Assembly (NCBI RefSeq): GCF_015910535.1
Contig: NZ_JACBJG010000013.1
Location: 62,001-126,000 of the forward strand
Source of the DNA: Saccharomonospora sp. NB11
Lineage (GTDB): Bacteria > Actinomycetota > Actinomycetes > Mycobacteriales > Pseudonocardiaceae
Length of the DNA stretch: 64,000 nt
Direction of reading: 5' to 3'
Under the pieces are notes generated by a model. It did no database searches. It was given only the letters and a program-made list of their open reading frames with translations, and had not been told where the DNA came from. Shown in pieces: positions 5,699 to 34,153 of the stretch (position 1 is its first letter; the number at the start of each line of letters is the position of its first letter). The translations under genes were made by a program, and so were the position numbers.

Positions 5699-6433
5699 TC
5701 AGTCGTTGGCCATCGCGACGACGTCCACGCTGTGGCCGAGGTGAGCGCGACCGCGCAGTCGCCGCAACTCCGGGAAGGGAAGCGTGCAGTGCCTGAGCAG
5801 GTGGTTCGCCCCTTCGGTGCCCGCGGTGCCCGCGTGGTCGCCCAACACCTTGGTGATCAGACAGATGTGGCTCGTCTGCCAGCGCCAGTAGTTGTTGCCG
5901 AGGTCGAGCAGGGCGTCGATGATCCGGTAGTGGACGCCTGACTCGGTGCCGCACGGCGCCAGTTCGGTGAGGTCGAGCCCCGACCGGGCCACCCAGGCCG
6001 CGAACGACTCGTAGAGCGGTCCCTCCTTGTCGCCGTGGCCCAGCAGGTGCGAGAGCCGGTGGAACTGCGCCGACTGCGCTCCGCTGGACGTGCCGAGGAA
6101 CGCCCGGAAGGTGGCGAAGTCACGCACCGGCAGGCGGTCGAGCACGAGAATGTGGTTCTGCAGCAACGACATCGTCGCCGCCGCCCGGTGGAGTACGTCG
6201 ACGATCCAGTCCGCACTCGACGAGTCGTCGGAGGTGGTGAAGGCGTCGAGCACCGCTTCCAGGTCGAGGATCAGTTGCTGGAGCCACAGTTCGCTGGCCT
6301 GGTGCGCGACGATGAAGAACCGCTCCGACAGGACCGTGGACTCCGACGCTCCGGTTCCCGCGGTGCGGGGTGACTGCAGAGACAGCAGCGTGTCCAGTTC
6401 GAGGTAGTCCTGGTAGGTCATGTCGTCGGCCAC
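5699..6433 (-). CDS. kynA: tryptophan 2,3-dioxygenase
   Basis: A 244-residue heme enzyme that opens the indole ring of tryptophan to N-formylkynurenine. Family marks are FFIVAHQASELWLQQ with the substrate-side His (about residue 44), FRAFLGTSSGAQS, and NNYWRWQTSHICL with the heme-ligand His (about 189), followed by the AGTAGTEGANHLL loop. It is slightly shorter than housekeeping forms. The start is GTG 6433, with AAGGAGAGGG upstream. It ends 3 bases from the convergent regulator. With a P450, a halogenase and an aminotransferase nearby it probably acts on chlorinated or beta-hydroxylated tryptophan rather than in catabolism, as in quinaldate and quinoxaline chromophore pathways. Confidence 0.92.
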   Translation of the reverse strand: MADDMTYQDYLELDTLLSLQSPRTAGTGASESTVLSERFFIVAHQASELWLQQLILDLEAVLDAFTTSDDSSSADWIVDVLHRAAATMSLLQNHILVLDRLPVRDFATFRAFLGTSSGAQSAQFHRLSHLLGHGDKEGPLYESFAAWVARSGLDLTELAPCGTESGVHYRIIDALLDLGNNYWRWQTSHICLITKVLGDHAGTAGTEGANHLLRHCTLPFPELRRLRGRAHLGHSVDVVAMAND

Positions 6434-6846
6434 TGTGGTTCCCTCTCCTTGTGACGAAGTCGGGCAGGTGATGGCGAGTCGCGAACGGAGGCCGCGTGCG
6501 AGGACACCGGACCGGATCCGGCGAGTCACCTCGGATGCCCGTGGCCCGGGACGTCGGTCCTCGCGTCGGCGCCGCAATCGGACATGATCCGGTGTCGCCT
6601 GTGAGGACACGTTCCCGAAAACATCGGCCCATTGTGGGCGAATTCGTGTCACGGCGCGGAGACGAGGAAAGAGTTCTGTCACGCGGTTTTTCGGTCCACT
6701 CCGGACTGTGAGGAAACCGCACTTCGACCGCTGTCAGGACGTCCTCGGTGCGGAAAAGACTCGGGAAAGATTGCCGCTGTGCGGGGCCGGCGCATGCCTA
6801 TTCTGAGCCGATCGTGCCGGTACCTCGCGTCGAAGGCGGACCGAAG
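6434..6846. promoter_or_regulatory. divergent intergenic region (413 bp)
   Basis: This is the only stretch of more than 300 bases without a gene. It separates the dioxygenase (minus) from the A-PCP gene (plus) and must hold both promoters. A 9-bp inverted repeat is visible (GACACCGGA at 6503-6511 and TCCGGTGTC at 6588-6596), as is a CCGGATCCGG palindrome near 6513. No canonical iron box of the TTAGGTTAGGCTAACCTAA type was seen. Confidence 0.5.
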
Positions 6847-8649
6847 TTGAGAACTGTTGCTGAATTTTTCGAAGGCAGCGTCGCGACATCGCCCAGCGCT
6901 CCGGCTGTGCGTTTCGAGGACACCGTCGTGACGTACGCGGAGGTGAACGCGGAGGCGAACCGGCTGGCCAGGCGACTGCTCGCCGCGGGCGTGGGACCGG
7001 ACTCGCTGGTCGCGATCGCGCTGCCCCGTTCGCCACGGCTGGTGGTGGCGGTGCTGGCCGTGCTGAAGGCGGGAGGCGCGTACCTGCCGCTCGACCCGGA
7101 CTACCCGGCCGCGCGGTTGACCCACATGGTGGAGGACGCCCGCCCGGTGTTGCTGCTGCGGACCGGGGACGTCACGGTGCCCTGCGACGGGCTGCCCGAA
7201 CTCGTGCTGGACGCCCCCGACGTCGAGGCCGAGGTGGAGCGGGAGCGCGCCGACGACGTGACTCAGGAGGAGCGGTCGGCGCCGCTGCTGCCCGACCACC
7301 TGATGTACGTCATCTACACGTCCGGGTCGACGGGTGTGCCGAAGGGAGTCGCGGTCAGTCACGCCGGGGTGGCGGACATGGTGTCGACCCAGGCGAGGAT
7401 CTACGGGGTCGGACAGGGTGACCGCATCCTGCAGTGGGCTTCGTTCAGTTTCGACGCGTGGTTCTGGGACTTCTCGCTCGCGTTGCTGCACGGTGCGACG
7501 TTGGTGATGGCCGATCGGCACGACCTGCTGCCGGGGGAGTCGCTGCGCGAGACCATGCTCCGCCACGAGGTGAACCACGCGGTGCTGCCACCCGTGGCGC
7601 TGGGCTCGACCGACAGCGAGGGGCTGCTGGTCGGCGGAACCATCACCTCCACCGGCGACGTGTGCACCCGGGCGCTCGCGGAGCGCTGGCAGAAGGGCAG
7701 GCGGCTCTACAACGCCTACGGCCCCACCGAGGTCACGGTCGGCGCGTCGATCGGCGGGCCGTTCGAAGGCGTGCAGGACGAGGTGAGTGTCGGGACACCG
7801 TGGGACGGTGGCACGGTGTACGTCCTGGACGAGCGGTTGGAGGACCTCCGCGACGGTGGCGAGGGCGAGTTCTTCCTCGGCGGCAGTGGCGTGGCGCGGG
7901 GCTACCTGAACCGGCCCGGGCTGACGGCGAGCCGGTTCGTGGCCGACCCGTACGGTCCGCCCGGCAGCCGGATGTACCGCTCGGGCGACCGGGGGCGTCG
8001 CGACCCGAACGGCGAGTTCTACTTCACCGGTCGCGTCGACAACCAGGTGAAGATGCGCGGCTTCCGGATCGAGCTGGGCGAGATCGAGGCCAGGTTGGAG
8101 ACGCATCCCGAGGTGGAGGTCGTGGTCGCGTGCGTCGGCGGTGAGGACGCCTCCACGCAGCACGTCGTCGCCTACGTGAAGACCCCGGCCGGTGCGACCG
8201 TGACGGAGGCGGAGCTGCGCGACCACGCCAGGGTGGCGCTCCCGGAGCACATGGTGCCTTCGAACGTCGTGCTGCTGGAGTCACTGCCGACGTTGCCGAA
8301 CGGCAAGGTCGATCGCAAGGCGCTCGCGGAGCGGGCCCTGACGTCCACGGTGGGGCAGCGGGCTGACGGCGCCGACAGGACCACGAGGGAGACGGCGGAC
8401 GCCGCCGCCACGTCGTACGAGCGCGTGGTGTGCGAGCTGGTGCGCGAGACGTTGGGGGTCGACGAGGTCACGCCGCAGGACAACTTCTTCGACCTCGGCG
8501 GCCACTCGGTGCTCGCCGCGCGGTTGGTCAGCCGACTGCGCAAGGAGGTCGGGGTGGCCGTGCCGATGCGGTCGATGTTCGAGACAGCGAACCTCGCCGA
8601 GCTGGCCGAGCTGCTCGAACGACGTGACGAGGGGCCGCGCGAGGCGTGA
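6847..8649 (+). CDS. stand-alone NRPS A-PCP didomain (probable tryptophan loading)
   Basis: A 600-residue adenylation domain plus carrier domain. Core motifs are complete: YVIYTSGSTGVPKG (A3), NAYGPTEVTV (A5), YRSGDRGRRDPNGEFYFTGR (A7-A8), LPNGKVDRKAL (A10) and FFDLGGHSVLAARLV (PCP). By eye the specificity residues read D-A-W-V-T-T-A-V-G-K; an unusual sequence around GGTITSTGDVC makes the middle positions uncertain. Free A-PCP proteins of this form hold tryptophan for beta-hydroxylation by a P450 in quinoxaline and quinaldate pathways, and the neighbours fit that role. The start is placed at TTG 6847 after AAGGCGGA; GTG 6814 is an alternative without a good ribosome site. Confidence 0.85.
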   Translation: MRTVAEFFEGSVATSPSAPAVRFEDTVVTYAEVNAEANRLARRLLAAGVGPDSLVAIALPRSPRLVVAVLAVLKAGGAYLPLDPDYPAARLTHMVEDARPVLLLRTGDVTVPCDGLPELVLDAPDVEAEVERERADDVTQEERSAPLLPDHLMYVIYTSGSTGVPKGVAVSHAGVADMVSTQARIYGVGQGDRILQWASFSFDAWFWDFSLALLHGATLVMADRHDLLPGESLRETMLRHEVNHAVLPPVALGSTDSEGLLVGGTITSTGDVCTRALAERWQKGRRLYNAYGPTEVTVGASIGGPFEGVQDEVSVGTPWDGGTVYVLDERLEDLRDGGEGEFFLGGSGVARGYLNRPGLTASRFVADPYGPPGSRMYRSGDRGRRDPNGEFYFTGRVDNQVKMRGFRIELGEIEARLETHPEVEVVVACVGGEDASTQHVVAYVKTPAGATVTEAELRDHARVALPEHMVPSNVVLLESLPTLPNGKVDRKALAERALTSTVGQRADGADRTTRETADAAATSYERVVCELVRETLGVDEVTPQDNFFDLGGHSVLAARLVSRLRKEVGVAVPMRSMFETANLAELAELLERRDEGPREA

Positions 8650-8660
8650 GCCCCCATGTG

Positions 8661-8701: not shown

Positions 8702-8707
8702 GTCGTG

Positions 8708-10291
8708 TCACGGTCTCCGTCGGTAGACCGGGTCCTTCTTGACGAGACCGAGCTTGGTCAGTGCCCTGACCACCCCGATGAACGCCGTGGCCAGGACGGT
8801 CTCGTGCACCCGGAACGTCGACGGCAGGCTCAGCACGGTGCTGCGCGCGTTCCAGTGGTCGCTGTGCGGCCCGTACAGCCGGTAGATCGTCGGGATCTGC
8901 GAACCGCTCCAGAGCCGGTAGGCGAGCTTCGGGTCGGCGAACACCGACGCCCGCCAGGGGGAGCAGCCGATCAGGTCCGCGAAATCGATCATGTAGTTGT
9001 TGTAGTGCACGAGGGTGCGTTCGTTCGGGTTGCCGAAGAACAGCTCGTCCTCGTAGGCCGCCTGCTGCTCGATGAGTTCGGTCAGCCGAGCGGGGTCGGG
9101 AAGTCTGCGCTTGCCGCTGCACAGCAGGGCGAAGTAGCGGCTCTGCATCTCGGAGCACGCGGGCACGCCACCCGCGGCGGGCCGCGCCCAGCCGATGAAG
9201 ACCATGCTGTCGCCGAGCTCCGGGTGGATCATGTGCTTGTACATCCGGCGGACGTCGCCCACGTCCACGTTCTTGAGGATGTCGAAGTTCTCCACGTAGC
9301 CCGTGTTGAGCATGATCGTGTCGATCTGCTCGCGCCGGCCGTCCTTGAACTGCACGTAGTCGCGGCCGAGCCGTTCGATGCCGGACGCGTTGACCGTCAG
9401 AGTCCCGTCGACCACCCGATGCAGGAACGACTCGTTCTTGGTGAAGAAGTGGTTGAAGAAGTACCGGTTGCGCGAGTTCCAGTCGGCCACCGCGCGTTCG
9501 ATCGGTGTCTTGCCGAACCGCTTGCCGAACTTCGCCTGCAACCGCGCGCCGAGCGTGGCGATCTGCAGCGGCACCGAGTTCAGCAGGTGGGAGGTGTAGG
9601 CGTCGTTCGGGTAACCGCGTTTGCCGGGGTTGCGCACGATGACCGGCTGGTGGCGGCGCACCGACAGCGTGCAGCTCTCGGCCACCCCGGCGATCTCGTG
9701 GACGACGTCGGCCGCGGTCTCGCCGACCCCGACGCAGAGCACTCGCTTGCCACGGAAGGGCTCGGCGTTGCGGTAGTAGGCCGAGTGCAGGATCTCGCCC
9801 TCGAACTCCTCCTGCCCCGGCAGGTCGATGTAGTTCGGAACCCGGTGGGTGCCCGTGGACACCACCACCGCGTCGAAGTGGTGGGTCGTTCGCTTCTCGG
9901 GCTCGCCCACCGGCGCGACCTCGACGAGGTAGCCGTCACCGTCCTCGCTTCTCGTCACGCTCAGCACGTCCGTGCGGTAGCGGATCGACGGTTCGAGACC
10001 GAAGTGATCGGCGAAGTCGCGGAGGTACTGCCAGTACTCGGCGGCCGACCAGTGATAGCGGCGCTGTCCCGGCGGGGGCGGGAAGCTGGAGAACGCCATC
10101 ATGTAGTTGGAGATGGTGAGCAGCGTCGAGTCGTAGTGACCCGGTTCGTCCGCGGCGGCGTTCGGCCGGAACACCCCGCCGAGCTGCGGAGCGCGGTCGA
10201 AGCACGTCACCGAGTGGTTCTCGTCCAGTAGTTCCTTCACCGCGACCAGGCCCGACGGCCCGGCACCGATGACACAGACGTTCTTTCTCAT
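8708..10291 (-). CDS. flavin-containing monooxygenase (class B)
   Basis: A 527-residue FAD/NADPH monooxygenase. It has an N-terminal FAD site (VCVIGAGPSG), the class B fingerprint FEGEILHSAYY (FxGxxxHxxxY) and a second nucleotide site (GVGETAADV) for NADPH. Start ATG 10291 places the FAD motif at residue 5 and has GAGG upstream. It lies downstream of the P450 in a minus-strand run of tailoring genes. A role in oxidising a kynurenine- or quinoline-type intermediate is plausible, since flavin monooxygenases occur in quinoxaline chromophore pathways. N- or S-oxidation of the final product is also possible. Confidence 0.88.
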   Translation of the reverse strand: MRKNVCVIGAGPSGLVAVKELLDENHSVTCFDRAPQLGGVFRPNAAADEPGHYDSTLLTISNYMMAFSSFPPPPGQRRYHWSAAEYWQYLRDFADHFGLEPSIRYRTDVLSVTRSEDGDGYLVEVAPVGEPEKRTTHHFDAVVVSTGTHRVPNYIDLPGQEEFEGEILHSAYYRNAEPFRGKRVLCVGVGETAADVVHEIAGVAESCTLSVRRHQPVIVRNPGKRGYPNDAYTSHLLNSVPLQIATLGARLQAKFGKRFGKTPIERAVADWNSRNRYFFNHFFTKNESFLHRVVDGTLTVNASGIERLGRDYVQFKDGRREQIDTIMLNTGYVENFDILKNVDVGDVRRMYKHMIHPELGDSMVFIGWARPAAGGVPACSEMQSRYFALLCSGKRRLPDPARLTELIEQQAAYEDELFFGNPNERTLVHYNNYMIDFADLIGCSPWRASVFADPKLAYRLWSGSQIPTIYRLYGPHSDHWNARSTVLSLPSTFRVHETVLATAFIGVVRALTKLGLVKKDPVYRRRP

Positions 10292-10336
10292 CCTGACCTC
10301 GTCTGTTGGTAGGGGCATGTGCGCGAACACCCGCCG

Positions 10337-11545
10337 TCAGTGGCCGAACTGCACGGGCAGGCTGTCGTAGCCGGTGAGGAAGTTCGAGTAGATCGGGTGG
10401 GGCTTGCCGGCAAGCTCCATCCGGCCCACACCGGCCACCAGGGCCGACAACAGGGCCCGCAGCTCCGCCCGCCCGAGGAAGGCACCGAGGCAGTAGTGCG
10501 GTCCGTTGCCGAAGGAGAGGTGCTTGTTGGGGGAGCGGGACAGATCGAAGCGGCGCGGCTCGGCGAAGACGGTCTCGTCGTTGTTCGCCGAGATGTTCCA
10601 CAGCGTGACGATGTCGCCGCGGCGCATCGTGACGTCGTGCAGTTCGACGTCGCGCAGGGCGGTGCGGGCCAGGTGCATTCCCGGTGTCGCCCAGCGCAGC
10701 ACCTCCTCCACGGCCGAGTTGAGGGAGACCTCGCCCGACTTCAGTGCCGTCCACTGGCCGGGGTGCTCGACGAGCGCGAGCACCGCGCAGATCGCCGACA
10801 GGCGGGAGGTCTCGTCGCCGCCGAGGATGAGGCTGTAGCAGTTGACCGCGATCTCGTCGAGCGTGAGGGGCTTGCCGTCCAGCTCCGCCGTCGCCAGCAT
10901 GCTGATGACGTCGTCGCCCGGCATCGACCGGCGCTCCTGCGCGACGTCCATGAAGTAGAGCAGGATCTCGTTGCGGGCTTCGAGCGCGTCGAGTTCGCTC
11001 GCGTCGGCGTGATCCGACGACAACGCCATCTTGTTCCACCGGAGCAGGTCCGGACGGTCCTCGGCCGGGATCGACAGCAGATCGCAGATCGTGTTCATCG
11101 GGATCTGGTCGGCGACCTGCGTGGCGAAGTCGAAGGTGCCCGCGTCGACGACGGCGGTGATCAACGCCGTGGTGCGAGCGCGCACCTTCTCGACCACGTC
11201 GGCGAGGACGCGCGGGGTGAAGGCCGTGCGCAGCAACTCCCGCATCCGGCCGTGTCGAGGCGGATCGGTGACGGCGAGCATGGTTCCGCCCGCGGAGTCG
11301 TCACCGCGTAGGACGACGTCGAGCACGTTGCCGCGCTCGGAGCTGAGGGCGTCGAGGTGGTAGAGCGCCTGGACGTCGGCGTGGCGGGACACGACCCAGA
11401 AGCCGGGGCGGTGTTCGCCGGAGTCGTGCCAGTAGACCGGGCTGGCCGCGCGCACCTCTCGCCAGAACTCGTGCGGGTCGTTGTCGACGAACGTCGCCGG
11501 GTCGGTGAGATCGAGGGAACGGACACCGAGAGCGGGCTGACTCAT
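10337..11545 (-). CDS. cytochrome P450 (probable tryptophan beta-hydroxylase)
   Basis: A 402-residue soluble bacterial P450. The heme-binding loop is FGNGPHYCLGAFLGRAEL with the Cys ligand near residue 352. The K-helix ExxR is in EEVLRW and the I-helix motif is LGGDETSR. ATG 11545 is the natural start; an in-frame extension upstream is not needed. In quinaldate and quinoxaline pathways a P450 hydroxylates the beta carbon of tryptophan held on a free A-PCP protein, and such a protein is encoded 2 kb away. That reaction would supply the 3-hydroxyl of 3-hydroxyquinaldic acid. Confidence 0.88.
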   Translation of the reverse strand: MSQPALGVRSLDLTDPATFVDNDPHEFWREVRAASPVYWHDSGEHRPGFWVVSRHADVQALYHLDALSSERGNVLDVVLRGDDSAGGTMLAVTDPPRHGRMRELLRTAFTPRVLADVVEKVRARTTALITAVVDAGTFDFATQVADQIPMNTICDLLSIPAEDRPDLLRWNKMALSSDHADASELDALEARNEILLYFMDVAQERRSMPGDDVISMLATAELDGKPLTLDEIAVNCYSLILGGDETSRLSAICAVLALVEHPGQWTALKSGEVSLNSAVEEVLRWATPGMHLARTALRDVELHDVTMRRGDIVTLWNISANNDETVFAEPRRFDLSRSPNKHLSFGNGPHYCLGAFLGRAELRALLSALVAGVGRMELAGKPHPIYSNFLTGYDSLPVQFGH

Positions 11546-11665
11546 CGGCCCACTGTGACAGTCGTCCGACCTGCGACGGCCCATCTCTTGCTGCTTCCTT
11601 TCCCGCTTTCGTCGCTCTCGCCGGGGGCTCCGGGCGACCGCCGTCCGCGCCCGTGATCGGCGGGC

Positions 11666-12220
11666 TTACGTCCGCTTCGGAATCTCCGGGTAGCGGGCGC
11701 GAAGCTGCTCACTGGCCTTGGGGCCACGGGCGAACACGTGGTGAGGGGTGTCGATCGGCTCTCCGCTCCGTCGGTCCACCACGACGGGCTCCACCTCGAC
11801 ACCGGTGCGTGCGTCGACGATCACCAGGCCGCGCTCCTCGGGTGCCAGCTCGTGGTTGCCCCACGCGGCCATGACGAGGATGAGCGGACGCAGCGCCCGA
11901 CCGCGCCGGGTCGCCCGGTACCGAGCCGCGCCGGAGGCCGGTTCCAGCAGGCCTTTCGCCACGAGCGTGTCCAACCGCTGTCGCAGCAGGTCGGGCGGCA
12001 TGTCGAGGTTGCGGGAGACGGTGTCGACGTCGGTGTTGCCGTCGAGAATTTCGTGCAGGATCTCCAACGTCCACCACGGCCCGATCGTCTGCGCGGTGCG
12101 GGCGAGGGGACAGTCGGGGATCCGTGGTCGGGGACCGTCCGACCGGACGGACCGCTCGCCGGGTCCGTCCGCGTCGGAGTGCCTGGCCTTGTCGACCGGG
12201 CTGTCCTCGGTCGTCGTCAT
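11666..12220 (-). CDS. HxlR-family winged-helix regulator
   Basis: A 184-residue DNA-binding protein. The HxlR pattern is clear: CPLARTAQTIGPWWTLEILH, then LLRQRLDTLVAKGLLEP (recognition helix and wing) and YRATRRGRAL. HxlR members often sense redox or electrophilic metabolites through the conserved Cys. Start ATG 12220 overlaps the flavin reductase stop by 4 bases, so it is cotranscribed with the halogenase-reductase pair. It has a long C-terminal extension of about 60 residues after the domain, which may bind a ligand. Confidence 0.8.
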   Translation of the reverse strand: MTTTEDSPVDKARHSDADGPGERSVRSDGPRPRIPDCPLARTAQTIGPWWTLEILHEILDGNTDVDTVSRNLDMPPDLLRQRLDTLVAKGLLEPASGAARYRATRRGRALRPLILVMAAWGNHELAPEERGLVIVDARTGVEVEPVVVDRRSGEPIDTPHHVFARGPKASEQLRARYPEIPKRT

Positions 12221-12750
12221 GACGGGACTTCGGCCAACGACCAGTAGCGGCGCATGCCGTACAGCAGTGGGTTCGCCGACCGCTCCGGTTGCGTGCGCAC
12301 CCGGTGCACCGTGCCGAAGACCACCAGGTGATCGCCGACTCGCAGGGTCTGCTCGACTGAGCAGTCGGCGATCGCGTGGGCGGCCTCGACGAGGTGGGGC
12401 ACACCGGAAACCGGTTCGCGCGACCAGGGGACGCGGTCGAACCGGTCCGCCGCGCCGGAGGCGAACAGCGTGGCCGTCGCCTCCGCCCTGTCGTGCAGCA
12501 GGTTGACGGCGAAGACGGAGCTCTCCAGCAGCGCCGCCAGGGTGGGTGACTGCTCGCGCAGACACGCCAGCAGGATCGGTGGCCGCAGCGAGACGCTGCA
12601 GATCGACGAGCACGTCATGCCCCACGGCCGCCCGTCCGGTGCGGTGGTCGTGACGACGGCGACCCCGGCGGGCAACGTCGCCATGAGCGACCGGAATTGG
12701 CCTGCGTCGACCGGCGGACGGCCGACGGCGCTGGTCAGATGATCGGTCAT
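12217..12750 (-). CDS. flavin reductase (halogenase partner)
   Basis: A 177-residue NAD(P)H:flavin reductase of the HpaC/ActVB type. It shows FRSLMATLPAGVAVVTT, PWGMTCSSICSVSLRPPILL and SVFAVNLL, which form the FMN/FAD-binding core of this family. ATG 12750 is chosen because AGGAGG lies 8 bases upstream; GTG 12756 is too close to it. It lies directly after the halogenase and very likely supplies free FADH2 to it. It may also serve other flavin enzymes in the cluster. Confidence 0.9.
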   Translation of the reverse strand: MTDHLTSAVGRPPVDAGQFRSLMATLPAGVAVVTTTAPDGRPWGMTCSSICSVSLRPPILLACLREQSPTLAALLESSVFAVNLLHDRAEATATLFASGAADRFDRVPWSREPVSGVPHLVEAAHAIADCSVEQTLRVGDHLVVFGTVHRVRTQPERSANPLLYGMRRYWSLAEVPS

Positions 12751-12775
12751 GTTCACCGCCTCCTGGCCTCGGCTG

Positions 12776-14430: not shown

Positions 14431-15675
14431 TCAGGCGGAGCGCTCGTCGCACTCCTCGACGAACTCCAGGAGTCGGCCGATCCCGTTCTCCAGCCAGGTG
14501 GGATCGACGCAGAACGCGATGCGGACAAGGTGCTGGGCCCACGGCGCGTAGTCGTGGGAGGTGACGCGGCCGTGGTCGTCGACGTGGGGGCGCATGGCGA
14601 AGCCGTTGCCCGGCACCACCGCGACGCCCTTGGCTTCGAGCAGCTTCGTGGCGAAGGTCTCCGAGTCCAGCCCCGTGCGACCCACGTCGAGCATCGCGTA
14701 CCAGCCACCGGCGGGCAGCTCCCGCAGCAGCCCGGCGTCGATCAGCGGGGGCAGGGCCACGTCCCGGTTGTGCTGCACGAGCTTGCGGTTGGCCGCCGTG
14801 CTCTGCGCGCGGCTGGCCAGGGCGGCGATGCCCGCGTACTGGGCCGGCGTGGAGGTGCCGATGATGTTGGCCTCCTGGACCACCTTCATGACGTCGGCGG
14901 CCTTGTCGTTGGCCAGCGCGACGTACCCGAGGCGGTAGCCGGTCATCGCGAAGCTCTTCGAGAACGTGAACACGCTGTGCACGATGCGCTCGGCCACGGG
15001 CACGTCCCGCTCCAGCGAGGCGACGGAGAGGTGCTCGCGGTCGTAGGTGAAGTGCTCGTACGCCTCGTCGCTGATCACGTGCCAACCGCGTTCCCGCGCG
15101 AGCTGCAACAGCGACTCGATCTCGGCCCGGTCGAGGATGGCCCCGGTCGGGTTGGCGGGCGAGTTGATGAGCAGGACCTTCGTGCGCGGGGTGGCCACGG
15201 CGGCGATCGAGTCGGCGTCGGGGTGGAAGTTCTCGTCGAGCCGGTACAGCACCGGGCGGAAACCGGCCAGCAGGCTCTGCTGGACGTGCACCGGCCAGTG
15301 CAGTTCCGGCAGCAGGATCTCGGCGCCGGGTTCGGCGAGCGTCTGCAACAGAGCGGCGAGCCCCTGACAGGAGCCCGGCGAGATCAGCAGTCGCGACACG
15401 TCGCTGTCGATGCCGTTGTCCACCCGGAGTTTCTCGACCGCGGCCTCGCGCAACGCGGTCATGCCCTCCACCCCGGTGTACTTGGTCTCACCACGCTGCA
15501 CCGCGTCGACGAACGCGGCGGCGACGTCCTCGCCCGGGTTGAAGTACGGGTCGCCGACGTGCAGTTTCATCACGTCGACCCCGGCTTGCTTCTCCTGTTC
15601 CTCGGCGGCCCGGAAGATGCCGTGCAGGCACGAGGACGGGATGGATTCGGCGGCGGAGTGGATTGCTGGAGTCAC
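14431..15675 (-). CDS. PLP-dependent class I/II aminotransferase
   Basis: A 414-residue fold-type I aminotransferase. It has the NPANPTGAI segment, the DEAYEHFTY strand and the PLP lysine in TFSKSFAMTGYRLGYV. The start is GTG 15675, with AAGGTGG seven bases upstream. It lies between the SDR and the halogenase. The likely substrate is a (chloro)(beta-hydroxy)kynurenine; deamination would let the aniline nitrogen close onto the alpha carbon to form the quinoline ring. A kynurenine aminotransferase giving kynurenic acid is the alternative, but that route would not leave a 3-hydroxyl. Confidence 0.87.
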   Translation of the reverse strand: MTPAIHSAAESIPSSCLHGIFRAAEEQEKQAGVDVMKLHVGDPYFNPGEDVAAAFVDAVQRGETKYTGVEGMTALREAAVEKLRVDNGIDSDVSRLLISPGSCQGLAALLQTLAEPGAEILLPELHWPVHVQQSLLAGFRPVLYRLDENFHPDADSIAAVATPRTKVLLINSPANPTGAILDRAEIESLLQLARERGWHVISDEAYEHFTYDREHLSVASLERDVPVAERIVHSVFTFSKSFAMTGYRLGYVALANDKAADVMKVVQEANIIGTSTPAQYAGIAALASRAQSTAANRKLVQHNRDVALPPLIDAGLLRELPAGGWYAMLDVGRTGLDSETFATKLLEAKGVAVVPGNGFAMRPHVDDHGRVTSHDYAPWAQHLVRIAFCVDPTWLENGIGRLLEFVEECDERSA

Positions 15676-27500: not shown

Positions 27501-28624
27501 TGGCCGACCGCCTGCCCGCGCACATGGTCCCGGCCTGGGTGCGGCCGGTCGAGGCGTTCCCGCTGACGGCCAACGGCAAGGTCGACCGCAAACGTTTGCT
27601 CTCCACGGTGACGGCAGCCCCCGCACCGCGTCCCACGCACACCGACCCACCGCGTCCGGGAGCCGAGACGCGGATCGCCGAGCTGTGGGCCGACGTGCTG
27701 GGGCGGCAACCGACGAGCCGCGACGAGAACTTCTTCGACGCGGGCGGAAACTCCCTGCTCGCCGCGCAGTTGGTCGGTCGGGTGCGCGAACACGTCGGCG
27801 AAGCCGCCGCGGTGTCGTTCGACGTCCTCTTGCGTGCGCTGCTCGACGCGCCGAGCGTCGCCGGGCTGGCGCAACGGCTGGAAGCGGCGGGCGCTCCCAC
27901 GTCGTCGGCGACGGAGCCCGCCGAGTCCCACTCGCCGTTGGTGCCGCTGTGGGTGCCGTCGGAGTCCGACTCGACGTCGGCACGGGTGCTCGTGCACGAC
28001 GCCACCGGAACGCTGGTGCCGTACCGCGATCTGGTGCCCCGGCTGGCCACCGACCGGCCGTTGTTCGGTCTCGCCGTGCTCGGCGACGGCGTTGTGGAGT
28101 CGGTCGACGCACCCGCGTCCGAGCTGGTCGAGACCCTGGCCGCCGAGCACGCCCGCACGCTGCGGGCCGCCGGGTACGACGAGATCGAGGTCGTCGGGTA
28201 CTCGCTGGGCGCGCCGGTGGCGTTCGAGCTGGCCAGGGTGCTGAGCGAGGCGGGGACGACGGTACGGCTGTCCCTCGTGTCGGGGCACCACGTCGCCGCT
28301 CCGCTGTCGGACGAGGCCGCCGACGAGCTGTTCGACCGGCTCGACGCCGAGCGGCTGGGCGAGCACGTCGCGCGGGCGCGCGAGTGGTTCGCCCGCATCG
28401 TCGACGCGGTGGCGCGGTACGAGCCGGAGCTGTACGCGGGCGACCTGACCTACCTCTGCCCGGTGGAGGCCCGACCGCCGGGTGAGGACCCGGTCGCGTT
28501 CTGGCGCGACGCGTGTCTCGGGGAGGTGACCGTGGTCGACGTCCCCGGTGACCACGTCGGCTGTCTGCGGCTTCCGCACGTCGAGCAGCTCGCCGCCGCG
28601 CTGGCCGCCGGGGACCGGGCATGA
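24530..28624 (+). CDS. NRPS 2: TubC docking-Cy-A(Cys)-PCP-TE
   Basis: A 1364-residue terminal module. Residues 1-55 are a TubC-type docking domain (GIELWREGDQLRFRAPRG). The Cy domain starts near 75 (FPLTDIQSAYLFGR) with DFMALDWLS and TPQVWLDCQ. The A domain (TSGSTGVPKG near 678) reads D-L-Y-N-L-S-L-I-W, the canonical cysteine code. The PCP Ser is near 1074 (DAGGNSLLAAQLV). The thioesterase has GYSLG near 1224 and a late GDHVG His. Unlike PchF there is no N-methyltransferase insert. GTG 24530 overlaps the NRPS 1 stop (GTGA). It adds and cyclises the second cysteine and releases the product as acid or by transfer to a nucleophile. Confidence 0.92.
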   Translation: MNAGELLDEFEDAGIELWREGDQLRFRAPRGAMTEDRLRRLRQAKPELLATLPAGRRTGDGVGSVWRARPEESDQPFPLTDIQSAYLFGRNPAFDYGGVSCHIYQEYEYPADLDPDRFQRAWDGLVRRHDALRTVLTDDGTQRVLPELPDTRIEVVDLRDADADAVAAASAKVRAELSHKVHPTEVRPMYELRLHLERERSVLHVSVDFMALDWLSLQQVLSELDQRYRSPDCELPPVEATFRDYVLAHRRLRETERYERDRAYWLARVDELPGAPALPLREDHDPATVPARFRRLTTTVDPQTWRSLKARAAEHGSTPANAVLAAYAETIGRWSATERFSLALPVLDRMPLHPHVDRLLGDFTSLNVLAVDHDGKSSFAERARALGERVFEDLDHRLYSGVEVLRELARRRGREAATAPVVFTGSIGVGGATTSVAGRNPRPVHGISQTPQVWLDCQVGDQFGGLDINWDVREGVFPDGVVDDMFAAFVGLLHRLAEHDDPWKARVPQPLPERQRAVRAEVNATSAPVPEGLLHDPLVAYARANPDRTAVIASSGSLTFGQWLGRAAGLAEVLRSAGCRPGDFVGIVLDKGLDQVVAVLGVLLAGGVYVPVDPGQPAVRRDRILTDSGVRVAIVAEGVTAPSEFRSVCVAEAREVPVADVPDGPAVDPGELAYVIHTSGSTGVPKGVMTSHRAATNTVHDINRRFGVGDSDRVLGLAALSFDLSVYDLFGPPAVGAALVLPDPDRRGDPSHWAALVAEHGVTVWNSVPAQLHMLLHYLDVEPTELPSLRVALLSGDWIPLVLPEHAGRHLPGTELVSLGGATEAAIWSIHHRIDGVEPHWRSIPYGRPLDNQRFHVLDAALRECPDLVTGELYIAGIGLATGYLNDPERTAERFPFHPETGERLYRTGDLGRYLPNGEIEFLGRADQQVKIRGHRIELGEIESVLSDHPAVGTCVVLAAGEEAFERALVAFVLPKQRSADVDTDELLRWVADRLPAHMVPAWVRPVEAFPLTANGKVDRKRLLSTVTAAPAPRPTHTDPPRPGAETRIAELWADVLGRQPTSRDENFFDAGGNSLLAAQLVGRVREHVGEAAAVSFDVLLRALLDAPSVAGLAQRLEAAGAPTSSATEPAESHSPLVPLWVPSESDSTSARVLVHDATGTLVPYRDLVPRLATDRPLFGLAVLGDGVVESVDAPASELVETLAAEHARTLRAAGYDEIEVVGYSLGAPVAFELARVLSEAGTTVRLSLVSGHHVAAPLSDEAADELFDRLDAERLGEHVARAREWFARIVDAVARYEPELYAGDLTYLCPVEARPPGEDPVAFWRDACLGEVTVVDVPGDHVGCLRLPHVEQLAAALAAGDRA

Positions 28625-29676
28625 GCGCCCCGCTGCGCGTCGTCGTGTGCGGTACGCGGTTCGGGCAGATCTACCTCGCCGCACTCGCGCGGGCGCCGGA
28701 GCGCTACCGACTCGTCGGCATCCTGGCCAGGGGCAGTGCCCGCTCACGCGCGCTCGCCGAGCAGTACGGCGTCCCGCTCTATGACGCGGTCGAGCAGCTT
28801 CCGGACGACGTGGACGCGGCCTGCGTCGTCGTGTCGAGCGCGGTCGGTGGCGGGCGTGGTGCGGACCTCGCCCGCGCCTTGCTCGAACGCGGCGTCCACG
28901 TGCTGCAGGAGCACCCGGTCCATCCGGACGAACTCGCCGACTGCCTGCGCGTGGCCCGGAGGACGGGAACCCAGTACGTGGTGAACACGTTCTACCCGTA
29001 CGTCGAACCCGTCCGCCGGTTCACCTCGGCGGCGCGAGCGCTGATCCGGCAACGTCGTCCCGTCTTCGTCGACGCGTTGTGCGCCGTGCAGGTCTCGTTC
29101 GACCTGCTCGACATCCTGGCCGACATCTTCGACGGACTCCGGCCCTGGTCGGTGACACCCGTCGGCGACTCCCGGGGCCGGCCCCTGACCGCCGTGCACG
29201 GAACGGTCGCGGGTGTGCCGCTCACGCTGCGCGTGGAGAACCGGATGAAGGAGGGGGACGACAGCAGCAGCTTGCTGCTGCACCGCATCACCGTCGGCAC
29301 GGACGCGGGCAACCTCATGCTGGCCAACACCCACGGTCCGGTGATCTGGAGCCCCGTGCTGCGGACGACGTCGGACCCGCTCGGGCTGTGGTTCACCGGA
29401 GCGGACGCCCCGGACGTCGGTGGTCCCACCGGGGCGTACGTGGGAGGTCCCGACACTCCCACCTGGTCCACGGTGGTGCGCGACGTGTGGGGCGACGGCG
29501 TCGTGTCCGCATTGGACGATCTGCGCGACCGGATCACCGCGAAGACCGATCCGTTGCGGGGCGGACAACGGATGTTGACCGTCGCGCGGGCATGGAAGGA
29601 GCTGACCGAGGGACTCGGCTATCCCGAAACGTCCACTCCGGACCCAGGCGAGCCGTTGACGGTGGCGGATCTGTAG
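28621..29676 (+). CDS. thiazolinyl imine reductase (PchG/Irp3 family)
   Basis: A 351-residue NADPH-dependent reductase of the Gfo/Idh/MocA type. The N-terminal dinucleotide motif VVVCGTRFGQIYLAAL and the LQEHPVHPDEL segment are typical of PchG, Irp3/YbtU and related enzymes, which reduce one NRPS-bound thiazoline to a thiazolidine. The late motif VENRMKEGDDSSSLLLHRI also matches that group as I recall it. ATG 28621 overlaps the NRPS 2 stop (ATGA). Because no N-methyltransferase domain exists in NRPS 2, the thiazolidine nitrogen probably stays unmethylated. Confidence 0.92.
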   Translation: MSAPLRVVVCGTRFGQIYLAALARAPERYRLVGILARGSARSRALAEQYGVPLYDAVEQLPDDVDAACVVVSSAVGGGRGADLARALLERGVHVLQEHPVHPDELADCLRVARRTGTQYVVNTFYPYVEPVRRFTSAARALIRQRRPVFVDALCAVQVSFDLLDILADIFDGLRPWSVTPVGDSRGRPLTAVHGTVAGVPLTLRVENRMKEGDDSSSLLLHRITVGTDAGNLMLANTHGPVIWSPVLRTTSDPLGLWFTGADAPDVGGPTGAYVGGPDTPTWSTVVRDVWGDGVVSALDDLRDRITAKTDPLRGGQRMLTVARAWKELTEGLGYPETSTPDPGEPLTVADL

Positions 29677-29782: not shown

Positions 29783-29802
29783 AAAAAGGGGACTGGAGGG
29801 CG

Positions 29803-31641
29803 ATGAACGCGAGCGATTCCGCCGGAGTGGGGCAGCGGCCGTCGGCCGCGGAGCCCGCTGCCGACTCCGCCGCGGAACACAGCATGGGAACACTTCTGCG
29901 ACCTCACGCCGCGAGCTTCGCGGGTGTGGTCGTGCTGCAGGTCATCGGCGCCGTCGCGGGGCTGGCACCGCTGTTGGCCGTCGTGGAACTGGGCCGCACA
30001 CTGCTGTCACCTGACCCGGTCGACGAGAGCCGGGTGTGGACGATCGTCGTCGTGGGTGCCGTCGGGCTGCTCGTCCGGCTGGTGTTCACGGCCGCGTCGT
30101 CGGGGCTCGGACACGTCGTCGACGGCAAGGTCCAGTTGACGCTGCGCCGCGCGCTCGCCACGCAGCTCGGGCGGGTGCCGGTCGGCTGGTTCTCCCGACG
30201 CCGCACCGGCGAGCTCGCCAAGGTGGTGGGTGAGGACGTCGGTGCCGTCCACCCGTTCATCGCGCACACGCCCGGTGAGCTGGTCTCCGCTTTCGTGGTC
30301 CCGCTGGTGTCGCTCGTCTACCTGTTCACGGTCGACTGGCGGCTCACGCTGATCACGTTGATCCCCGTCGTGCTGGCCATCGCCCTGGTCCCGCTGATGA
30401 TGACCCCGACCCGCACGCGCGAGCAGAACGAGTTCGACGCGGCGATGGGCCGGATCTCGAACTCCGTCGTCGAGTTCGTGCAGGGCATCTCGGTCGTGAA
30501 GACCTTCAACGGCACGGGACGGGCCCACCGCAGGTTCCTCACGGCCGCCGACGAGTTCGTCGGTACCTTCACCCGGTGGGTGCGCGGCATGTCCGGCATC
30601 GCCGCGGGCATGCAGCTCGTGCTGTCGCCGCCGTTCGTGCTCGTCGCGGTGCTCGTGGGCGGGACCGCGTTGATCACCTCGGGCAGTCTCGCGCCCGCGG
30701 ACCTGTTGCCGTTCCTGCTGCTCGGCCTCGGGCTCACGGCACCGGTGGCCGCGCTGGGACACGGGTTCGACGAGATGCAGGCCGCCGGACGCGCCGTCGG
30801 CCGCATCAAGGAGGTGCTGGGGGTCGACCCGCTGCCGGAGCCGACCCGGCCTCGGCGGCCGGAGGGTCACCGGGTCGAACTGCGTGACGTCCGGTTCTCC
30901 TACGAGGACGACCACGAGGTGCTCAAGGGCATCGACCTGACGCTCGAGCCGGGCACCGTCACCGCGATCGTCGGTCCGTCGGGCAGCGGGAAGTCCACGC
31001 TGGTGCAGTTGCTGCCCCGGTTCTTCGACCCGACCCAGGGGTCGGTGCGGCTCGGTGGGGTCGACCTGCGCGAGGTCGAGAGCGCGGAGCTGTACCGCAC
31101 GGTCTCGTTCGTCTTCCAGGACGTCCGCCTGCTGCGGGCGTCCGTCGCCGAGAACATCGCGCTCGCGGTGCCGCACGCGGAACTCGACGACGTCGTGCGC
31201 GTCGCCAAGCTGGCCAACATCCACGACCGGATTCTGGAGCTGCCGCGCGGGTACGAGTCGGTGATCGGGGAGGACGCCGGACTGTCCGGCGGTGAGGCGC
31301 AGCGGATCGCGATCGCCCGCGCGTTGCTTTCCGAGGCCCCGGTGCTCGTGCTCGACGAGGCCACGGCCTTCGCCGACCCGCAGACGGAGGCGGCGGTGCG
31401 TCGTGCGTTGTCGAACCTCGGTCCGGAACAGACGGTGCTGGTCATCGCGCACCGGCTCGAAACGGTGGCCGACGCCGACACGGTGGTGATGTTGGACGGC
31501 GGGCAGATCGTCGAGCAGGGCACGCCGGCCGAACTGCTGGAGAAGGGCGGGAGGTTCGCCGAGTTCTGGCGCACCCACCGCGCGGCGGTCGCCGACGACG
31601 AGTCCGAGGAGGACGTGGTGCGAGGAGGTGGAGTTCGATGA
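29803..31641 (+). CDS. half ABC transporter (siderophore type), subunit 1
   Basis: A 612-residue half transporter: about six membrane helices (residues about 40-330) fused to one ATPase domain. The ATPase has Walker A GPSGSGKST (about residue 392), signature LSGGEAQRIAIARAL and Walker B VLVLDEATAFAD, whose D-loop deviates from the usual SALD. With the next gene it would form a heterodimer like YbtP/YbtQ, PchH/PchI or IrtA/IrtB, which take up or process metal-siderophore complexes at the inner membrane. It starts at ATG 29803 with GGAGGG upstream. No separate substrate-binding lipoprotein is encoded beside it, which fits that transporter class. Confidence 0.88.
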   Translation: MNASDSAGVGQRPSAAEPAADSAAEHSMGTLLRPHAASFAGVVVLQVIGAVAGLAPLLAVVELGRTLLSPDPVDESRVWTIVVVGAVGLLVRLVFTAASSGLGHVVDGKVQLTLRRALATQLGRVPVGWFSRRRTGELAKVVGEDVGAVHPFIAHTPGELVSAFVVPLVSLVYLFTVDWRLTLITLIPVVLAIALVPLMMTPTRTREQNEFDAAMGRISNSVVEFVQGISVVKTFNGTGRAHRRFLTAADEFVGTFTRWVRGMSGIAAGMQLVLSPPFVLVAVLVGGTALITSGSLAPADLLPFLLLGLGLTAPVAALGHGFDEMQAAGRAVGRIKEVLGVDPLPEPTRPRRPEGHRVELRDVRFSYEDDHEVLKGIDLTLEPGTVTAIVGPSGSGKSTLVQLLPRFFDPTQGSVRLGGVDLREVESAELYRTVSFVFQDVRLLRASVAENIALAVPHAELDDVVRVAKLANIHDRILELPRGYESVIGEDAGLSGGEAQRIAIARALLSEAPVLVLDEATAFADPQTEAAVRRALSNLGPEQTVLVIAHRLETVADADTVVMLDGGQIVEQGTPAELLEKGGRFAEFWRTHRAAVADDESEEDVVRGGGVR

Positions 31642-33353
31642 TCCGGACGCTGCTGCGCGTGCTCGGCGAGGAGTACGCCCGGCCGTTGCGCCGCACGGTC
31701 GCGTTGATGACGATCACCGCGATCGCCGAGGGTCTGTCGTACGCCCTGATCGTGCCCGTGCTGCGGGAGTTGTTCGGCGACACCCCCGCCGACGCCTGGC
31801 CCTGGCTGATCGCGTTCGCGGGCGCGGTGGTGCTGTACGCGGTGCTGCGTTACGTCAGCGACCTGTCGGGGTTCCGCGTGGGCGCCGCCCTGCTGCGGGG
31901 CATGTACCACCGGCTCGGCGACCACCTGGCCCGCCTGCCGCTCGGGTGGTACGACTCCGGCCGGGTCGGCGAGGTGTCCGTCCTGGCCAGCCGGGGTGTG
32001 CTGCAGGCGATGAGCGTGATCGCCCACCTGCTCGCTCCGTTCGTCTCGGCGTGCGTGACCCCGTTGACGATCGTGGTCGTCATGCTCGTCTTCGACTGGC
32101 GGCTCGGCCTGGCGGCGCTTGTCGCGGCCCCGCTGGTCGCGGCCATCCAGGTGTGGACCGGCCGCTCGATGGCCGCCGACGACGTGGAGCGGGCCCGCCG
32201 CGACAAGGACGCGACCGATCGCGTGATCGAGTACCTCCAGGCTCAGCCGGTGCTGCGCGCGGGCAACCGGACCGGCGAACGGTTCGAACTGCTCGACAAC
32301 TCGTTGCGGCAGGTCGAGCGGGCGTCCCGACGCCAGACGTTGTCGGCCATGCCCGGCGCGGTGGGGCTGACGGTCGTCGTGCAGGCGATGTTCACGGTGC
32401 TGCTCGCGCTGGGCGCGTACCTGGCGCTCGGCGGCTCCATCGGGGTGCCCGAGCTGTTGACGGTGCTCGTGCTCGCCGCGCGCTGTGCCGACCCGCTGCT
32501 GTCGCTGTCCGACATCGGCGGCAAGCTGCGGGCCGCCCGGGGCGAGCTGGCCAGGCTCGACGTGGTGCTGCGCACCGAGCCGTTGCCCGAGCCCGCCGAG
32601 CCCGTCCGGCCGGAGACCGACGACCTGACGTTCGACGCGGTCACGTTCCGCCGGGGCGACCGCACGGTGATCGACGAGCTGTCGTTGCACGTGCCCGAGG
32701 GACAGCGGCTCGCGGTGGTCGGTCCGTCCGGTGCGGGCAAGAGCACGCTGCTGGAGCTGGTGGCGCGCTTCTACGACGTGGACGGCGGCGCGGTCCGCAT
32801 GGGCGGGGTCGACGTGCGGAACATGGACGCCGAGGTCCTGATGTCGAAGGTCGCCATCGTGTTCCAGGACGTGTACCTCTTCGACGGCACCATCGAGGAG
32901 AACATCCGCCTCGGTCGGCCCGACGCCACCGACGAGGAGGTCAGGGAGGCGGCGACTGCCGCGCGGCTGGACGAGGTGATCGAGCGGCTGCCCGGTGGCT
33001 GGCAGGCGAACGTCGGTGAGGGCGGTGCGCTGCTCTCGGGCGGAGAACGCCAGCGGGTCTCCATCGCGCGAGCGCTGCTGAAGAACGCACCCGTCGTGTT
33101 GCTGGACGAGGTGACGTCGGCGCTCGACCCGGTGAACGAGACGGCCGTCCACGAGGGCATCGAACGGCTGATGGCGGGCCGGACCGTGGTGATGGTGGCG
33201 CACCGCATGCGCACTGTCCGCCGCGCCGACCGGGTCGTCTTCCTCGACGACGGACACATCGTCGAAGAGGGCACGCACGACGAGCTGGTGGCGCGCAACG
33301 GCCGGTACGCGCGCTTCTGCGATCTGTCCATGGCGTCGGTGACGAGCGAGTGA
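31638..33353 (+). CDS. half ABC transporter (siderophore type), subunit 2
   Basis: A 571-residue partner of the preceding transporter, with ATGA overlap. The N-terminal part has six hydrophobic segments. The ATPase domain has GPSGAGKST, LSGGERQRVSIARALL and VVLLDEVTSALD, all intact. The paired half-transporter architecture beside a cyclising NRPS is what is found in yersiniabactin, pyochelin and mycobactin loci. Import of the loaded metallophore is more likely than export by analogy, but direction cannot be read from sequence. Confidence 0.88.
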   Translation: MIRTLLRVLGEEYARPLRRTVALMTITAIAEGLSYALIVPVLRELFGDTPADAWPWLIAFAGAVVLYAVLRYVSDLSGFRVGAALLRGMYHRLGDHLARLPLGWYDSGRVGEVSVLASRGVLQAMSVIAHLLAPFVSACVTPLTIVVVMLVFDWRLGLAALVAAPLVAAIQVWTGRSMAADDVERARRDKDATDRVIEYLQAQPVLRAGNRTGERFELLDNSLRQVERASRRQTLSAMPGAVGLTVVVQAMFTVLLALGAYLALGGSIGVPELLTVLVLAARCADPLLSLSDIGGKLRAARGELARLDVVLRTEPLPEPAEPVRPETDDLTFDAVTFRRGDRTVIDELSLHVPEGQRLAVVGPSGAGKSTLLELVARFYDVDGGAVRMGGVDVRNMDAEVLMSKVAIVFQDVYLFDGTIEENIRLGRPDATDEEVREAATAARLDEVIERLPGGWQANVGEGGALLSGGERQRVSIARALLKNAPVVLLDEVTSALDPVNETAVHEGIERLMAGRTVVMVAHRMRTVRRADRVVFLDDGHIVEEGTHDELVARNGRYARFCDLSMASVTSE

Positions 33354-33364
33354 GGTAGAGACCG

Positions 33365-34153
33365 GTGGTATCTCCGTCCGAGAGTTCCGGCGCGTTCCGC
33401 CGGTACGCACCCCGCCCGTACGCGCGGGCTCGCATCCTGGTGTTCCCGCACGGTGGGGGGAGCGCGAGCTACCACCGGTCCTGGGCCACGGCGGCGCCGT
33501 GGGACGTCGAGCTGCTCGTCGCGCAGTATCCGGGCCGGGAGGACAGGTACTCCGAGCCCGTGCCGAGCGACATGCAGTCCCTCGCCGACTCGCTCGCCGC
33601 CGACGTGCCCCGAGACGGGTTACCCCGTCCGCTGGTCCTGTTCGGACACAGCATGGGATCGCTCGCGGCGTACGAGGTCGCGCGCCGCCTCTCGGAGGCG
33701 GGCACGCCGCCTGCGGCGTTGGTGGTCTCCGGGCATCCGGCACCGGAGCTGACCCGGCCGGGTCGGCTGCACCTGGCCACCGACGACGAGCTGGTGGAGG
33801 AACTGCGCCGCACCGAGGCCACGCACGTCGACATCCTCGACAACCCGTCGCTGGTCGCGGCGTTCCTGCCGATCATCAGGGCCGACTACCGCCTGAGCGA
33901 GACCTATCGTCCGGCTCCCGGTCCGTTGCTGAAGGTCCCGGTCACCGTGCTGTACGGCGATCGGGACCCCGAGGTTGACACTCGGGAGGCCGAGGGATGG
34001 CGGTCGGTCACCGAGGACTCGTGCGAGCTCACGGTCTTCGAGGGCGGTCATTTCTATCTGGACCGACACCGTGACGCGGTGGTGGAACTGCTCGTGTCCT
34101 GCGCACGTGCCGCGTGCGGGGCGACGACCGCGCCGTGGCCGTCGGCTCCCTGA
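33365..34153 (+). CDS. type II thioesterase (PchC/YbtT-like)
   Basis: A 262-residue external thioesterase that clears wrong or stalled groups from NRPS carriers. It has ARILVFPHGGGSASYHRSW, VLFGHSMGSLAAYE with the Ser nucleophile, YGDRDPEV and GGHFYLDRH with the catalytic His. The start is GTG 33365 with GAGG upstream, 9 bases after the transporter stop. Codon 86 (33620-33622) is TTA, a rare leucine codon here. Its position at the end of the NRPS-reductase-transporter run matches the editing thioesterases of siderophore clusters. Confidence 0.9.
   Translation: MVSPSESSGAFRRYAPRPYARARILVFPHGGGSASYHRSWATAAPWDVELLVAQYPGREDRYSEPVPSDMQSLADSLAADVPRDGLPRPLVLFGHSMGSLAAYEVARRLSEAGTPPAALVVSGHPAPELTRPGRLHLATDDELVEELRRTEATHVDILDNPSLVAAFLPIIRADYRLSETYRPAPGPLLKVPVTVLYGDRDPEVDTREAEGWRSVTEDSCELTVFEGGHFYLDRHRDAVVELLVSCARAACGATTAPWPSAP

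Follow-up and report, generated by a model that had tools for sequence, protein, structure and literature searches.

We analyzed a 64,000-nt stretch of the genome of Saccharomonospora sp. NB11 (contig NZ_JACBJG010000013.1, here C5, positions 62001 to 126000, of a 4.3-Mb, 29-contig genome), referred to below as the window, and the biosynthetic genes that it carries. The region from 4.85 to 34.2 kb of the window, perhaps reaching out to 39.3 kb, very probably forms a single biosynthetic cluster with a hybrid pathway, in which a chlorinated hydroxyquinaldate would feed a pyochelin-type assembly line. Three known pathways appear to be joined here: tryptophan chlorination, synthesis of a hydroxyquinoline acid, and a pyochelin-like cysteine line. 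An initial annotation had proposed this hybrid logic, and four observations give the proposal good support: the gene content is conserved between genera, the ligase pocket has diverged, the ligase signature correctly predicted a cassette in another genome, and the halogenase belongs to the tryptophan family. Gene identities were assigned by gene calling and by Pfam and NCBIfam profile searches of the window proteins (Table 1).

Genes of the probable hybrid cluster

The adenylation-peptidyl carrier protein (A-PCP) didomain, MbtH-like protein, P450, thioesterase (TE), tryptophan 2,3-dioxygenase (TDO), aminotransferase (AT), and oxidoreductase (a short-chain dehydrogenase/reductase [SDR]) of the 3-hydroxyquinaldic acid pathway are all present together. 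Every gene that the initial annotation had named for this enzyme set was found; only the placement of the set between 5699 and 34153 required correction, as the MbtH gene lies outside that interval. According to two papers (PMC4052310 and PMC3578932), tryptophan is loaded by A-PCP and MbtH, hydroxylated at its beta carbon by the P450, and set free by the thioesterase, after which TDO acts; the aminotransferase then leads to 3,4-dihydroxyquinaldate and the oxidoreductase to 3-hydroxyquinaldate, which is passed to an AMP ligase. In PMC3578932 the release step was not addressed by experiment. The window TDO, the only one found in the genome, could be aligned in two blocks with TDOs of solved structure. 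Among solved structures, the P450 scored highest against 4L0E (P450sky/CYP163B3), at 474 bits, and the runner-up reached 297 bits. Among the genes absent from the initial annotation are those for a flavin monooxygenase (FMO)-like protein, a winged-helix regulator, and an HxlR-type regulator.

A tryptophan halogenase and its flavin reductase, both previously annotated, were recovered by profile searches. The halogenase carries the WxWxIP and GxGxxG motifs of this family and is close to solved tryptophan halogenases, above all 5HY5 (Trp-6; 775.5 bits) and 8FOV (Trp-5; 773 bits) but also 5LV9 and 6NSD. Since the first two scores are nearly equal, C5 and C6 as the site of chlorination are not distinguishable by this comparison.

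The annotated pair of cyclization (Cy)-A-PCP modules with cysteine codes agreed with our motif reading of two nonribosomal peptide synthetases (NRPSs). The closest solved chain to NRPS1 was PchE (7EMY), at 930 bits, with the next at 612 bits. As in PchE, a methyltransferase (MT)-like domain, unnamed in the initial annotation, is inserted in the A domain; this region aligned to PchE as a second block, and its S-adenosylmethionine motif looks degenerate by eye, so that epimerization is the role that we infer for it. The A-domain codes read as cysteine type (DLW-N-L-S-L-IW and DLY-N-L-S-L-IW), and both condensation domains have the Cy-type D....D motif and lack HHxxxDG. Cy domains, cysteine-type A domains, an aryl carrier protein (ArCP) for the starter, and a thiazolinyl imine reductase, the last also annotated before, thus make up a pyochelin-type thiazoline NRPS system. 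The claim that salicylate and dihydroxybenzoate (DHB) synthases are missing held for the window genes examined but is doubtful for the genome, which has three chorismate-binding enzymes. None of the three is on C5, so no salicylate starter supply was found nearby; together with the changed ligase pocket described below, this argues for a variant rather than a pyochelin cluster.

Table 1. Genes of the cluster and its possible edge, in window coordinates
Feature	Position	Strand	Basis
MbtH-like protein (A-domain partner)	4854..5072	+	PF03621 above cut-off at C5:66854-67009
Winged-helix regulator (Trans_reg_C)	5069..5695	+	Profile match
TDO	5699..6433	-	PF03301; longest ORF extends to 6682
A-PCP didomain, probable Trp/Cl-Trp loader	6748..8649	+	Profile matches
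FMO-like flavin monooxygenase	8708..10330	-	PF00743
P450, probable beta-hydroxylase of PCP-bound Trp	10337..11584	-	Match to 4L0E
HxlR-type regulator	11666..12220	-	PF01638
Flavin reductase, probable halogenase partner	12217..12756	-	PF01613
Flavin-dependent tryptophan halogenase	12776..14341	-	PF04820
PLP class I/II AT, TioG-like role	14431..15675	-	PF00155
SDR oxidoreductase, TioH-like role	15717..16463	-	Named from sequence and plasmid relative annotated SDR
Type II TE, probable release of beta-hydroxy-Trp	16460..17179	-	PF00975
Aryl-AMP ligase, altered pocket HNAALGCPG/NVYGIGEG	17288..18970	+	NCBIfam, solved-structure match, motif alignment
Alpha/beta hydrolase, probable kynurenine formamidase	18935..19672	-	Weak BD-FAE match
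NRPS1: ArCP-Cy-A(Cys)-[MT-like insert]-PCP, PchE-like	19950..24533	+	Profiles, 7EMY match, motifs
NRPS2: TubC_N-Cy-A(Cys)-PCP-TE	24530..28624	+	Profiles, motifs
Thiazolinyl imine reductase	28621..29676	+	PF01408 and PF21390 (Irp3-like_C)
ABC transporter subunit 1 (IrtA/YbtP-like)	29803..31641	+	Profile; best solved match IrtA
ABC transporter subunit 2	31638..33353	+	Profile match
Type II TE (editing), TE2	33365..34153	+	PF00975
MFS exporter, possible cluster edge	36979..38400	-	PF07690; 77% orthologue adjoins P450 in S. daqingensis
TetR regulator, possible cluster edge	38579..39295	+	Profile match; 66% relative in S. daqingensis only

Conservation of the gene set and divergence of the ligase pocket

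Relatives were collected by scanning genome contigs for NRPS1 with six short peptide patterns and keeping the best 80 of 123 matches; counts are therefore lower bounds. Window proteins were then searched against ten loci resembling NRPS1 (64 to 71%), with 20-kb extensions for eight. These eight full relatives come from Streptomyces daqingensis, Streptomyces halstedii, Saccharopolyspora kobensis, Verrucosispora sediminis, Micromonospora lutea, Micromonospora andamanensis, Micromonospora sp. CP22, and Nonomuraea soli. All eight have TDO, A-PCP, P450, flavin reductase, halogenase, AT, SDR, and TE as well as the ligase, NRPS1, NRPS2, reductase, ABC pair, and TE2, in varying gene order. SDR orthologues (69 to 79%) are present in each, A-PCP orthologues (67 to 74%) occur in 9 of 10 related genomes, and stops within the best matches of core genes fall only in the last three residues (A-PCP of S. 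halstedii and AT of S. kobensis). The FMO gene was seen in seven of the eight (not in N. soli), and MbtH in five, one of them partial, but not in the stretches fetched for the other three. The winged-helix regulator is kept in 11 of 12 related clusters, at 70 to 78% in nine and 42 to 43% in two nonhalogenated ones, and was not seen in a Microbispora metagenome-assembled genome (MAG). TDO is orthologous (60 to 61%) in the two Streptomyces strains only, the other six having a relative at 29 to 31%; another BD-FAE-type hydrolase lies beside a halogenase in M. andamanensis and N. soli. In Streptomyces glaucescens, assembled in short contigs, NRPS1, A-PCP, TDO, and MbtH share one contig and an AT (81%) is on another.

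This retention of the whole set across genera, in reshuffled order, bears on whether the window holds two unrelated neighboring clusters whose quinaldate is destined for another peptide. A large polyketide synthase (PKS)-NRPS does lie upstream (C5:20.7-50.8 kb), and it was considered as the quinaldate user; it was rejected because an AMP-ligase-ketosynthase loading protein of its own stands at its start, although the Pfam searches behind this stop short of the two largest genes later in the system. Chance adjacency was rejected on the cross-genus conservation, and we regard the two-cluster explanation as very improbable.

The ligase provides further evidence for the hybrid pathway. The initial annotation had called it an aryl-AMP ligase, and it proved to be of the DHB/salicylate AMP ligase type: it falls near DHB-AMP ligases in NCBIfam, at 602 bits against a cut-off of 723.55, and its best solved match is the salicylate-AMP ligase 5WM2. 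Relative to salicylate- and DHB-type enzymes, however, HN[FY].L[AS][CS]PG has become HNAALGCPG and QQVFGMAEG has become xN[VW][YF]GIGEG, with mostly smaller side chains, so that the pocket is not of the salicylate type. HNAALGCPG and GIGEG occur together in all 11 distinct members: nine halogenated clusters with a full-length ligase, a plasmid of Streptomyces sp. NBC_00727, and a genome designated G218. In a tree from which ten duplicate loci and every match with <450 aligned residues were excluded, the signature-bearing ligases grouped together as a single clade (support, 100/100) that comprised 12 of the 47 rows, including two identical G218 copies. As a test of the signature, AT was searched for in five genomes whose ligases are related (G218, G215, G234, G222, and G245), and only G218, the one bearing GIGEG, was positive (52%); its flanking genes read TDO-AT-SDR-TE-P450-A-PCP. 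HNAALGCPG plus GIGEG is a usable marker for genome mining. At identities of at least 76%, the ligase was found in 5 of 298 genomes of the order, the window's own and four of one genus, whose coordinates suggest that they are the Micromonospora/Verrucosispora strains already counted; AT, at an E value of 1e-90, was found in 1 of 394 sampled genomes of the class, the window's own.

The change of F/Y to A in the pocket was dropped as proof of hydroxyquinaldate, since ligases that retain GMAEG share it in genomes without AT; the change alone therefore does not specify the acid. Three clusters have such GMAEG ligases (loci L105-L109; G222, G215, and G234) and lack an AT of the window's type. They probably use another nonsalicylate starter.

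Two types of halogenase, ~61 to 62% identical to each other, occur among the relatives. The window type (76 to 82%) is found in the two Streptomyces strains and N. soli. The other type is 83 to 86% identical to 6NSD, presumably Tar14 of taromycin, and is found in seven relatives: S. kobensis, four Micromonospora/Verrucosispora strains, the Microbispora MAG, and N. soli as a second copy. In relatives it adjoins a TDO, resembling the taromycin route to chlorokynurenine. PMC12615548 describes Tar14 as acting on free tryptophan to give 6-chloro-tryptophan and, later, 4-chlorokynurenine. With two halogenase types in this cluster family, at least two separate acquisitions of chlorination are probable, and the two types, which occur together in N. 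soli, make the chlorine position testable in culture-collection strains. The two N. soli genes (L010:424-1971 and 7472-9016) suggest a dichlorinated product in that strain. In S. halstedii, a PrnB-like enzyme, a FAD monooxygenase, and an LCM-type methyltransferase are encoded between the ligase and FMO genes (L037:611-3925); PrnB uses 7-chloro-tryptophan in pyrrolnitrin synthesis.

A nonhalogenated line is represented by NBC_00727 plasmid NZ_CP108982.1 (144000-193000), which encodes TDO, AT, SDR, P450, a hydrolase, and an A-PCP whose N terminus is MbtH-like. This cassette adjoins cysteine-type NRPSs (one clear Cy motif by pattern), a thiazolinyl-reductase-like gene, methyltransferases, and a GIGEG ligase (57 to 58% identity). 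No halogenase match and no ABC-pair orthologue were found in the 49-kb stretch. From this halogenase-free line, the coupling of cassette and thiazoline line would either predate chlorination or have more than one origin. A plasmid search with the P450 returned seven records; three besides NBC_00727 were examined, one record carrying no annotation, and showed other contexts with no recognizable bisintercalator cluster. The corresponding search with A-PCP, at 1e-130, was negative.

Predicted pathway and product

The order of steps and the regiochemistry given here are predicted from the gene set. The halogenase and flavin reductase would chlorinate free tryptophan at C5 or C6, and A-PCP, with MbtH, would load the chloro-tryptophan. 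The P450 would then hydroxylate the beta carbon, and the thioesterase would free beta-hydroxy-chloro-tryptophan, which TDO and the formamidase may convert to beta-hydroxy-chlorokynurenine and the aminotransferase and SDR to 6- or 7-chloro-3-hydroxyquinaldic acid. The NRPS1 ArCP would receive the acid from the dedicated AMP ligase, after which NRPS1 and NRPS2 would each add and cyclize one cysteine, with probable epimerization by the inserted domain of NRPS1. Finally, the thiazolinyl reductase would turn one ring into a thiazolidine, and the TE would release the acid. The predicted core, which FMO may modify, is a chloro-3-hydroxyquinaldoyl-thiazoline-thiazolidine acid (before any FMO step, C16H14ClN3O3S2; [M+H]+ 396.024). 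The formula was derived by hand and the mass computed (deschloro form, 362.06); the same sum with salicylate and an N-methyl group returned the pyochelin formula. Structurally, the compound would be a benzo-fused hybrid of desferrithiocin and pyochelin, and it should bind metal through the phenolate oxygen, ring nitrogen, and sulfur.

Each part of the cluster has a known counterpart. The layout ArCP-Cy-A-[insert]-PCP followed by Cy-A-PCP-TE, with a thiazolinyl reductase, an aryl ligase, and an ABC pair, resembles that of pyochelin and yersiniabactin (PchE/PchF and HMWP2), from which the window cluster differs in its changed ligase pocket, its lack of an iron box, the lack of any MT domain found in the second module, and the lack of a salicylate synthase among the window genes examined. 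Thiocoraline and SW-163 (Tio and Swb) share the set of A-PCP, MbtH, P450, TDO, AT, oxidoreductase, and AMP ligase (described in passages of PMC4052310 that mention chloro chromophores solely as feeding products); here, in contrast, the acid would feed Cy domains rather than a bisintercalator peptide, and a tryptophan halogenase has been added. A tryptophan halogenase with a TDO, and in the two relatives checked also a hydrolase, recalls taromycin and gausemycin (Tar14), but the window halogenase is of the other type and its product would go on to beta-hydroxylation and ring closure. Desferrithiocin, too, has a 3-hydroxyaryl N-heterocycle on a thiazoline; the predicted core would differ in its quinoline for pyridine, its chlorine, and its second ring. 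Quinolobactin is likewise a quinaldate chelator derived from tryptophan and kynurenine, but of the 8-hydroxy type and without NRPS elongation. No paper joining hydroxyquinaldate to a pyochelin-type line appeared, by title or start of abstract, among the open PMC matches listed, a set mostly outside subscription journals, and the predicted chlorinated quinoline chelator was not encountered in the papers searched. Chemical novelty is conditional on the structure of thiazohalostatin, an Actinomadura metabolite (PMC10951976) whose name suggests a thiazole and a halogen.

Several points weigh against the hybrid pathway. In Micromonospora sp. CP22 the NRPS genes do not share a contig with the cassette, and the G218 cassette is likewise on a contig other than that of its ligase and NRPS. 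HNAALGCPG occurs with GMAEG in G215, G222, and G234, genomes without AT. For the formamidase candidate, the profile match is weak and none of the 12 related clusters has an orthologue. In the Microbispora MAG, both NRPSs are encoded along with a TDO, the halogenase, and transporters, but an A-PCP orthologue is missing, AT was found nowhere in the MAG, and the ligase is reduced to its last 87 residues (L006:4648-4908); it is a decayed or misassembled case. Likeness to Tio, Swb, and Ecm was drawn from described gene sets, activation of hydroxyquinaldate by the ligase is putative, and the product of the family and its chlorine position are predicted. FMO is not accounted for by the predicted route, which would fit a starter that is some other tryptophan-derived acid (chloro-kynurenic, 3,4-dihydroxyquinaldic, or chloro-anthranilic). 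Descriptions in PMC12615548 and PMC12471526 also fit such a starter, with the taromycin halogenase and later steps leading to chlorokynurenine and with chlorokynurenic and chloroanthranilic products proposed for gausemycin. We consider another acid unlikely: A-PCP, P450, thioesterase, AT, and SDR are conserved together in all eight full relatives and in two nonhalogenated lines, and the conserved genes match the 3-hydroxyquinaldate set described in PMC4052310.

Metal role, regulation, and neighboring genes

A metallophore function, which the initial annotation had also proposed, was not established and is weaker than the reading of the cluster as a hybrid pathway. Iron boxes were sought in the fetched flanks, which partly overlap, with an IdeR/DmdR-type consensus (≤5 mismatches of 19). 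None was found in 23 stretches of the family (13 genomes; best sites, 6 to 8 mismatches), the window included, whereas 8 of 16 sibling actinobacterial thiazoline loci had them. They were present in none of five stretches of the three GMAEG-type clusters, none of two upstream of the window, one of two of a locus on contig C24, and none of 30 first-order random sequences modeled on six of the stretches. Iron control of the cluster is thus unsupported; half of the siblings also lack the box, so its absence is no proof against a chelator. No Zur box was found at ≤3 mismatches of 15 in 22 stretches, searched in one orientation of the near-palindrome and without a positive control.

The C24 locus (L091, C24:124001-140000) has two iron-box-like sites at 3 mismatches. 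One of the genome's three chorismate-binding enzymes adjoins a second DHB-type ligase (47%) at this locus, an arrangement that makes a separate catechol (DHB) siderophore locus in the same genome probable.

These observations bear on what the product of the hybrid pathway might do. It may act as a classical siderophore, produced when iron is limiting and reimported by the ABC pair, as the pyochelin-type line and thiazolinyl reductase would suggest. The pair had been annotated as YbtP/Q-like; both genes are present, but subunit 1, the one compared with solved structures, scored best against IrtA (398 bits), then eukaryotic exporters (378 bits), and then YbtP. The IrtA match favors import, the closeness of the exporter score argues against reading it so, and the distribution of iron boxes (family and sibling loci as well as C24) does not favor iron control; a siderophore is a reasonable possibility, short of probable. 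We give nearly even odds to a secreted antibiotic, antioxidant, or copper-active compound governed by its own regulators instead of metal repressors. The conserved winged-helix regulator and the lack of iron boxes in the family, shared by sibling loci L013-L016, are consistent with this. So is a multicopper oxidase, which in M. andamanensis and N. soli is encoded within the cluster alongside a histidine kinase (L090:9284-13727 and L087:10281-13996), making a copper link possible. Against it, the IrtA/YbtP-like pair is present in all nine halogenated relatives covered, though not seen in the NBC_00727 stretch.

Our broader proposal is tentative, held with somewhat less than even confidence: a widespread, previously undescribed actinobacterial family of chlorinated quinoline-thiazoline chelators, in which a pyochelin-type line recruited the chromophore route of bisintercalators and also, on two or more occasions and with different halogenases, a chlorination step. 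Its regulation would be independent of iron, and it might act on copper. If true, it would link a DNA-bisintercalator chromophore pathway to metallophore-type assembly lines, a link not met in the papers searched, and provide a natural benzo-fused analogue of desferrithiocin, whose chelator type is a class of drug interest.

Other genes in and near the window lie outside the cluster or at its edges. An asparagine-synthase-like gene directly follows it (34340-36187), and comparison with the 12 related clusters gave no match for this gene. A class III aminotransferase fused to a shikimate-dehydrogenase-like reductase domain (2098-4806), with no match in the 20 loci tabulated, likely belongs to the upstream system. 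The PKS-NRPS, which has an AMP-ligase-type loading domain (L001:697-15792; C5:35803-50783), ends ~11 kb before the window. Downstream, a tryptophan dimethylallyltransferase followed by a beta-eliminating, tryptophanase-like lyase (42721-45261) forms a separate small prenyl-indole locus, and a carbamoyltransferase with N- and C-terminal Pfam domains is encoded at 51006-52835.

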